Part shown: one piece after another, positions 28,149-30,380 of the stretch | Numbering within the stretch: the first letter of the stretch is position 1 | Layout of the letters: each line of letters opens with the position of its first letter | Origin: Ruminococcus sp. | GTDB taxonomy: Bacteria > Bacillota > Clostridia > Oscillospirales > Ruminococcaceae | Direction: 5' to 3' | Assembly (NCBI GenBank): GCA_014799735.1 | Contig: JAAVHL010000144.1 | Location: forward strand, 1-32,870 | DNA: 32,870 bases | The notes under the pieces: generated by a model | The model's database searches: none | What the model was told of the DNA's origin: nothing | What the model saw: only the letters and a program-made list of their open reading frames with translations | Translations under genes and position numbers: made by a program

Positions 28149-29546
28149 TTGGATAAACAAATTATAAATAACAGCCGACATATCCACTTTATCGGCATAG
28201 GCGGAAGCGGAATGTATCCGCTGGCGCAGATACTCCACTCAAAGGGATATTTTCTGACAGGCTCGGACAACAACGAGACGGAGACCTTGCAGGCTGTCCG
28301 CAGTATGGGCATTCCCGTGTACCTTGGTCAGCGGGCGGAGAATATCGGGGACGCCGATCTTATCGTCCACACGGCGGCTATCCTGCCCGACAACCCCGAG
28401 CTTATCGCCGCCAAAAGCAGCGGAGCAACGGTGCTTGAAAGAAGCCAGCTTTTGGGTATCCTTACCGAGCAGTTCGGAAACACCATATGCGTAAGCGGCA
28501 CTCACGGCAAGACCACCGTTACCTCCATGATAACTCAGATACTGGTCATGCAGGGACTTGACATAAGCGCGGTGATAGGCGGAAAGCTTCCCCTTATCCA
28601 CGGCAGCGGCATTGCGGGAAAAAGCGATATCATGGTGTGCGAAGCCTGCGAGTTTCAGGATCATTTCCTAAATCTTAAAACCTCGGCGGCGGTGGTGCTG
28701 AACGTTGACGAGGATCATCTGGACTATTTTAAAAATCTTGACAATATAATCAGATCGTTCCGAACTTTCTGCGAGAACGCCGACAGCGCCGTTATCATCA
28801 ACGGGGACGACGAAAATTCCATGCGGGCTGTGGAGGGTCTTGACAAAAGCAGGATAATCACCTTCGGCAGGTCGGAAAGCAACAAATGGTATCCTGCCAA
28901 CATAAATCACATCGGCGGCATGGAGACCTCCTTTGACATTATGCGGGACGGAAAGCTGTTCTGCAAAACGGTACTGCACGTTCCCGGAGAGCATAACATT
29001 GTGAACGCTGTTGCTGCTGCCGCGGCTGCGGACTACGCTGGAGCTTCTCCCGAGGGAATAGCCAAGGGTCTGGAAAGTTTTAAGGGCGCGGGCAGACGGT
29101 TTGAAAAGTACGGCGAAGCGGGCGGCATTACCGTTGTGGACGATTACGGTCACCACCCTGCGGAGATCGCCGCAACGTTGGAATCGGCGGTAAAGCTGGG
29201 CTTCAAGCGGGTGTGGGCGGTACACCAGCCCTTTACATTTTCAAGGACGGAGCTTCTGCTTGACGACTTTGCAAAGGCGCTTTCCATTGCCGACAAGGTC
29301 GTTCTTACGTCCATAATGGGCGGCAGAGAGGTGAACACATCGGGAATAACCGCCTCCGCTTTGGCGGACAAAATAAACGGCGCGGTATGCTTCGACAGGG
29401 AGCATGACGAGAGCATAGAGCTTGTGTCGCAGTACGTCTGCGAAAACGCGGAGGAGGGCGACCTGATAGTTACCCTCGGCTGCGGAGACGTTAACAAGGC
29501 GGCAAGAAGAATACTGGAACTGCTGAACGAGAAATACTCCCGATAG
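28149..29546 (+). CDS. murC: UDP-N-acetylmuramate--L-alanine ligase
   Basis: IHFIGIGGSGMYPLAQILHSKGY, VSGTHGKTTVTSMI, DDYGHHPAEIAATL; TTG start predicted. Confidence 0.95.
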   Translation: MDKQIINNSRHIHFIGIGGSGMYPLAQILHSKGYFLTGSDNNETETLQAVRSMGIPVYLGQRAENIGDADLIVHTAAILPDNPELIAAKSSGATVLERSQLLGILTEQFGNTICVSGTHGKTTVTSMITQILVMQGLDISAVIGGKLPLIHGSGIAGKSDIMVCEACEFQDHFLNLKTSAAVVLNVDEDHLDYFKNLDNIIRSFRTFCENADSAVIINGDDENSMRAVEGLDKSRIITFGRSESNKWYPANINHIGGMETSFDIMRDGKLFCKTVLHVPGEHNIVNAVAAAAAADYAGASPEGIAKGLESFKGAGRRFEKYGEAGGITVVDDYGHHPAEIAATLESAVKLGFKRVWAVHQPFTFSRTELLLDDFAKALSIADKVVLTSIMGGREVNTSGITASALADKINGAVCFDREHDESIELVSQYVCENAEEGDLIVTLGCGDVNKAARRILELLNEKYSR

Positions 29547-29554
29547 GGAATAAA

Positions 29555-29776
29555 GGCAACACCGCACAAAGAGCGGCTAACGCCTTTGCGCACGTCTTGC
29601 TTGCATATTTTTCGTCATAAAAATGCTAAAGCATTTCACCAAAATTTTTTGACATACGCCAGTATGCAAAAAGCTAAAGCTTTTGCGAATTTTTGGCACA
29701 ATCTGACGAAAAATCTGACGTTCAATCTTTGATTGAACAAGCGCAAATACGCACGCAATCTTTGTGCGGTATCGCC
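29555..29776. mobile_element. MITE-like element with terminal inverted repeats and TAAA target duplication
   Basis: Ends GGCAACACCGCACAAAG and CTTTGTGCGGTATCGCC are inverted repeats with two mismatches; TAAA at 29551-29554 and 29777-29780; extended imperfect inner palindromy (ATTTTTCGTCA / TGACGAAAAAT); no ORF. Confidence 0.75.
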
Positions 29777-29801
29777 TAAATTCACAGAAAGGATGGTTTA
29801 A

Positions 29802-30380
29802 ATGAACGACAAGGAAAAACGGGTTTTTGAGTACGTCAAGGAGCGAATGGAGGACGGCTTTGCTCCGTCCATACGTGAGATATGCGCGGCTCTGGGCATA
29901 CGCTCCACCTCCACGGCGGCAAGGTATGTCAATAACCTTGTTTCGGAGGGATACCTTGAAAAGGTTGACGGCTGCAACCGCGCAATAAAGCTTGCGGGAA
30001 AGGGTGCTGTTAAGATACCCTTGGTGGGTACTATCACGGCAGGTCAGCCCATTACCGCGGTTGAGGACATTACGGACTACATCAATTTCCACGAGCAGAA
30101 AAACTACACGGGAGAGCTTTTCGCTCTTAAAGTCCGCGGCGAAAGCATGATAAACGCGGCTATTTTGGACGGTGACATTGTTGTTGTGGAAAAATGCTCC
30201 ACCGCCCGGAACGGCGAGATCGTCGCCGCTATGGTAAACGGAGAAGAGGCTACCGTCAAGACGTTCTACAAGGAGAACGGCCACTACCGCCTCCAGCCCG
30301 AAAACGATACTATGGATCCCATTATCGTGGACGAGTGCGAGATAATCGGAAAGATCGCAGCGGTAATACGCTACCTTTAA
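29802..30380 (+). CDS. lexA: LexA SOS repressor
   Basis: HTH SIREICAALGIRSTSTAARYVNNL; cleavage site TAGQP; catalytic VRGESMINAAILDGD and Lys in EEATVKTFYK. Confidence 0.95.
   Translation: MNDKEKRVFEYVKERMEDGFAPSIREICAALGIRSTSTAARYVNNLVSEGYLEKVDGCNRAIKLAGKGAVKIPLVGTITAGQPITAVEDITDYINFHEQKNYTGELFALKVRGESMINAAILDGDIVVVEKCSTARNGEIVAAMVNGEEATVKTFYKENGHYRLQPENDTMDPIIVDECEIIGKIAAVIRYL

Follow-up and report, generated by a model that had tools for sequence, protein, structure and literature searches.

Definitions of MITEs usually rest on the ends of the elements. Among described non-coding elements, the Chunjie MITE of Geobacter uraniireducens resembles the one reported here in its length (178-235 bp), in its terminal repeats and duplications and in having one copy inside an operon, as far as the accessible sections of PMC10969869 describe it. 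The Correia elements of Neisseria (NEMIS/CREE) have inverted repeats round a conserved core and fold when transcribed, and in several cases they modify neighbouring genes (accessible sections of PMC2649163 and PMC10969869). IS5-family insertion sequences (IS; NF033581 transpos_IS5_4) are alike in another respect, having 17-bp ends identical to those of the present element (0-2 mismatches) and 4-bp TTAA-like duplications. The element considered here lies between murC and lexA in the window (the whole 32,870-nucleotide stretch of DNA that was analysed, from Ruminococcus sp., a gut bacterium). We hold with high confidence that it is a non-autonomous MITE, probably mobilised in trans by an IS5-type transposase, and that it left the adjoining genes and the ribosome-binding site intact, with read-through the most likely source of lexA expression.

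The element in the murC-lexA spacer

Intact murC (UDP-N-acetylmuramate--L-alanine ligase; 28149-29546, + strand; TIGR01082, 399 bits, above the cut-off), the TAG stop codon of which ends at 29546, is followed by an intact lexA of 192 aa (29802-30380, + strand; TIGR00498, 180 bits, above the cut-off). The 222-bp element occupies 29555-29776, 8 bp from the murC stop and 25 bp from the lexA ATG at 29802, exactly where an earlier reading made from the letters alone (the sequence-only reading) had placed it. The terminal inverted repeats of about 17 bp with two mismatches and the perfect TAAA duplication given in that reading were also borne out: the left repeat GGCAACACCGCACAAAG (29555-29571, + strand; class A, with the same ends on IS5-family elements) and the right repeat GGCGATACCGCACAAAG (29760-29776, - strand, from repeat comparison) match at 15 of 17 positions, and TAAA stands at 29551-29554 and, as read from the sequence, at 29777-29780. 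No ORF of 60 aa or more is contained in 29555-29776. The lexA ribosome-binding site AGAAAGGATGG (29786-29796, + strand) lies outside the element and is kept at the empty site described below. Inside the left end is a sub-terminal hairpin, GGC-TAAC-GCC (29575-29584, + strand), which reads GCC-TNAC-GGC in other copies, with a compensatory C-G/G-C swap in 13 of the 45 sequences having letters on both sides. The conserved core (29598-29720, + strand), common to elements with different ends, was delimited from the copy alignment, the repeats and a covariance model, R1. It contains the hairpin TTGACATAC-GCCA-GTATGC (29649-29667, + strand) and, relative to the 172-bp canonical form of the element, the extra hairpin inserts AAAATGCTAAAGCATTT (29620-29636) and AAAAAGCTAAAGCTTTT (29668-29684); a further palindromic insert, TTCAATC-TTT-GATTGAA (29721-29743, + strand), is likewise missing from the canonical form. 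The 50 bp by which the window copy exceeds the canonical length come from three palindromes inserted over 14, 15 and 21 alignment columns.

The element had been called MITE-like, and further copies together with empty sites in relatives uphold this. Another full-length copy, 94% identical, lies on a different contig (G000:C53:19095-19322) of the draft host genome (2.19 Mb, 151 contigs, 78.7% complete), making two full copies altogether, and matches were found in 17 of the 61 genomes searched (the host and 60 others; 16 of 60 without the host), mostly of the same genus and some holding more than 10. Copies with 4-bp duplications (TTAA, TAAA, TATA, CTAA) occur in many genomes. Of the other genus members, 19 have a readable junction, and every one of these lacks the element and has only 6-35 bp between murC and lexA. 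The window spacer reads TAG-GGAA-TAAA-[222 bp]-TAAA-TTCACAGAAAGGATGGTTTAA-ATG and that of G007, the LexA of which is 95% identical, TAG-GGAA-GAAA-TTCACAGAAAGGATGGTTTAA-ATG; an Oscillospiraceae MAG (JAIEDQ010000058.1) has the same empty spacer as G007. The G007 junction is the exact pre-insertion state but for one target base: the empty sites that the sequence-only reading proposed to look for exist, with GAAA in G007 in place of the single TAAA. The site of the C53 copy is empty in G007, G008 and G009, with both flanks adjacent and a 5-base overlap; G007 reads CTTTC-TATA-AGTATTC and the host CTTTC-TATA-[element]-TGTA-TGTATTC, a 4-bp target duplication with one change (TATA/TGTA). Folded as RNA the element gives -77.8 kcal/mol (z -7.1) and as DNA -60.5 (z -8.3). 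The 94% copy, the matches in other genomes, the exact empty sites and these z-scores place the element far beyond chance, and on comparison of these sequences we take it to be a real and recently mobile MITE.

We note several further observations. The C53 copy (L002), too, lies close to a gene, fewer than 20 bp away from what is probably the start codon (ATG) of an ORF for a multi-pass membrane protein. In the murC-lexA gap of G009 (L070), CTATAGGGGCAAAACCGTGTGAAAGG just before lexA is like a single terminal repeat GGCAACACCGCACAAAG, and the gap of G008 (L069) looks like a deletion derivative; both are possibly what is left of an earlier insertion there. A distant relative (L175, JAQXHC010000046.1; LexA 59%) has an 82-bp gap with an apparently independent and decayed mini-element, TTTAA-GGCAGCAACGCAC...ATGCAGCATTGCC-TGAA.

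The core structure was assessed with an RNAalifold consensus of 15 pairs. In all, 97.2% of its cells pair, compared with 87.8% (sd 0.6) after shuffling and 30-44% after sliding; the tract at column pair 80/126 is often unpaired. Cells with both sides changed number 60 against 13.7 (sd 2.9) in shuffles, and the covariation score of 0.244 compares with 0.077 (sd 0.008) there, numbers that are inflated by related copies and that arm-to-arm correction in a palindrome could also yield; pairs with double changes (6 against 4.6) do not differ significantly. The alignment shows that a palindromic fold has been maintained in the core, and covariation of this kind does not prove an RNA function.

Expression of lexA downstream of the element

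An element directly upstream of lexA, of a family with a covarying core structure, might be read as a conserved lexA leader or riboregulator and not as a mobile element, a reading that is hardly credible and that the empty sites already refute: the element is missing from the junction in every readable genus relative and from 32 genome-collection loci with murC-lexA gene order, it stands at many unrelated sites with target duplications, and Rfam gave no match above the gathering score in the window. The same relatives bear on the idea that the insertion rewired lexA by bringing a promoter or removing LexA autoregulation. The TTGACA at 29649, the murC-lexA gap without a LexA box and the closeness of the insertion to the lexA start codon would fit such a change, but murC-lexA is an ancestrally tight operon, an arrangement also seen in most more distant murC-lexA loci. 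With gaps of only 6-35 bp in the relatives, lexA would have been co-transcribed with murC before the insertion, and a spacer of this kind would have had neither a dedicated promoter, for which there was no room, nor a LexA box to disturb. The lack of GAAC-N4-GTTC between the genes, as previously claimed, was confirmed; none lies upstream of murC in the window either, one-mismatch matches occurring elsewhere only, and a LexA box search with a palindrome count upstream of murC yielded no candidate. The motif is also lacking upstream of murC/lexA at 75 of the 80 lexA loci of relatives (L153-L232) and present at 5, so its absence is a lineage trait and was not caused by the insertion. A promoter scan called no promoter pair inside the element, and the best match of a relaxed scan, TTGACA-18-GCTAAA (9/12), was reached by 292 of 500 shuffles and is at the level of chance. 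The TTGACA proposed as a good -35 is indeed present at 29649-29654, but it forms one arm of the family's conserved hairpin TTGACATAC-N4-GTATG (the pattern TTGACATACN{3,6}GTATG has 67 occurrences in 13 of 27 genomes, the reversed-pattern control 1), and it is kept in most copies whatever gene adjoins. We consider rewiring very unlikely, and the suggestion that LexA autoregulation may be rewired here is not sustained. Of the choice put forward with it, a promoter inside the element or read-through, the second half stands as the ancestral state and the first does not.

A less drastic possibility is that the element polarises the operon, its hairpin lowering or separating lexA expression through RNase III processing or partial termination. 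When transcribed, the element would fold into a stable hairpin (about -78 kcal/mol) without a U-tract, and RNase III or another RNase may cut this hairpin and so part the murC and lexA messages. The host genome has an RNase III gene (rnc, 235 bits), and RNase III cuts MITE terminal repeats in Correia elements (accessible sections of PMC10969869), which together with the very stable fold is consistent with polarity; however, no U-tract follows the hairpin on the + strand, no terminator was called there and the sequence bears no sign of cleavage. We regard polarity as possible, with the chances somewhat against it. The insertion itself left murC, lexA and the lexA ribosome-binding site intact. 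For that site the mean predicted unpaired probability is 0.62 when the element is in place and 0.64 when the flanks are joined, and its predicted accessibility is unchanged by the insertion. Most likely read-through from murC still accounts for lexA expression, and the most likely effect of the insertion on lexA is nil to modest.

Terminal cassettes, a partner insertion sequence and the shared core

Terminal repeats and the 4-bp duplication served to delimit about 70 copies in 13 genomes. These copies give a canonical length of 172 bp, with a core of some 99 nt, and their ends fall into classes: A (GGCAACACCGCACAAAG), A2 (class A with a changed 3' part, ...CACAACTA or ...CACAATTA), B (GGAAGCGCTGATTAAATC), C (GGTCACCTCTAAAAACCA) and D (GAACCTGTCTTCACAAG), the last with a more divergent core. 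Copies with clear boundaries have both ends of one class; in L310 the automatic labels differed between the ends, and by eye both are class C. The host holds classes A (window and C53), B (C134) and D (C19). Copies in G025 (L281-L300, L357-L359) differ in length by steps of 26 bp (172, 198, 224, 250), which suggests a repeated 26-bp internal unit. Two terminal repeats alone form a 44-bp near-perfect palindrome, TTAA-flanked, in the host (G000:C78:8891-8935, L007), and this palindrome is also found in two close relatives (G007:C44, L348; G008:C219).

A partner for these ends was found in other genomes. In G003, GGCAATACCGCACAAAC stands about 120 bp from many contig ends, mostly preceded by TTAA, and is always followed by the same sequence with the ORF start MNKQLTFSLISDELAQ...; these IS ends precede the ORF in 13 copies, and the contigs break inside the multi-copy IS, of which the ends and the N-terminus are present and the interior is missing. 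A family-wide search with a 28-residue stretch from this ORF start led to G184, where eight copies have a 329-codon open frame and several are flanked by GGCAATACCGCACAGAA, a matching right end and TTAA-like targets. The encoded protein is an IS5-family transposase (NF033581 transpos_IS5_4, 350.6 bits, cut-off 140), also assigned to PF01609 and PF05598. Because the same ends flank an IS5-family IS with 4-bp duplications, the element was probably mobilised in trans by such a transposase; its interior is unlike that of the IS and is not IS-derived. We propose that a trans-acting transposase of IS5 type recognised the 17-bp ends and that insertion took place into a murC-lexA operon spacer of 26-29 bp in an ancestor of the host strain. 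An IS5-type transposase with the element's ends was not found in the draft host genome, which at 78.7% completeness and in 151 contigs may be missing the partner, or the partner may have been lost. Four transposase genes from a DUF772 search of the listed genomes are unrelated and lack the element's ends. The plasmid collection gave no match to the element or to the IS N-terminus.

Comparison of the copies suggests that cores and ends assort INDEPENDENTLY, the core being independent of the terminal repeats and shared by at least three end classes. Among 48 aligned interiors, core identity between genomes differed by -0.008 for same-class minus different-class ends (permutation P 0.85), and the sub-terminal arms followed end class (+0.058, 0 of 2000 permutations). 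As the permutation test ignores relatedness, the contrast within G003 is the stronger evidence: between elements that differ in their ends, mean identity is 88% in the cores (97.6% at most) and only 51% in the arms. Individual copies, compared with core limits slightly different from those of the permutation comparison, give the same picture: the core of L302 (class B) is closest to those of L303 and L308 (A2; 97.7%), that of L311 (B) to L316 (A2, in another genome; 96.6%), that of L325 (B) to L323 (A; 95.4%) and that of L310 (C) to L301 and L305 (B; 95.4%). The simplest explanation is gene conversion of cores between dispersed copies; another is the capture of new ends. At family level the element would then be a core hairpin module joined to several different terminal cassettes, probably by recombination or gene conversion between dispersed copies.

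The core is also widespread. Covariance model R1, which spans the 99 positions of the core and nothing else, matched in 108 of 398 family genomes and 40 of 126 genera at E <= 1e-4 when up to 10 candidates per genome were scored. Among the 30 R1 matches listed, 26 have the hairpin anchor pattern and all 26 gave terminal repeats, mostly of class A, A2, B or C with TTAA-like duplications. Perhaps the core spreads in Ruminococcaceae-type genomes on exchangeable ends, with matched cassettes for each IS5-group transposase and cores that recombine freely and persist, a proposal to which we give a little under even odds. In the phage collection, end fragments only (28-30% of the query) were found, in four unannotated human-faecal records (MT835489.1, MT836531.1, MT835572.1 and MT835480.1) with about 65 bp resembling the element's left end, so the family may travel on phages.

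Comparison with described elements

The locus offers a very recent MITE insertion in an operon controlling the SOS regulator, with the exact before and after sites to hand, and it disposes of a claim of regulatory rewiring that is tempting but lacks support. Here one covarying core stands behind at least three different end pairs, and 40 of the 126 genera covered have it. Shuffling, if real, would mean that a non-autonomous element can outlive the loss of its transposase by switching ends, and it brings up the function of the conserved core. In the open-licence literature we found no paper on the terminal repeat string, on MITEs of Ruminococcus or Oscillospiraceae or on bacterial elements that share an interior but not their ends, and modular shuffling of ends and cores was found neither there nor in the accessible sections of a 2024 review of prokaryotic MITEs (PMC10969869). 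The Chunjie MITE differs in sequence and host, and multiple terminal classes on one core are not described for it in those sections. Correia elements also differ in sequence, and the RNase III cleavage, IHF binding and promoters shown for them in the accessible sections of their sources are hypothetical for the present element. IS5-family ISs, which share its ends, differ in that the element has no transposase gene and an unrelated interior. One covarying core behind several end pairs is an unusual variant, which we did not find described in a limited open-licence search; the insertion before lexA is itself ordinary in kind, an IS5-type MITE.
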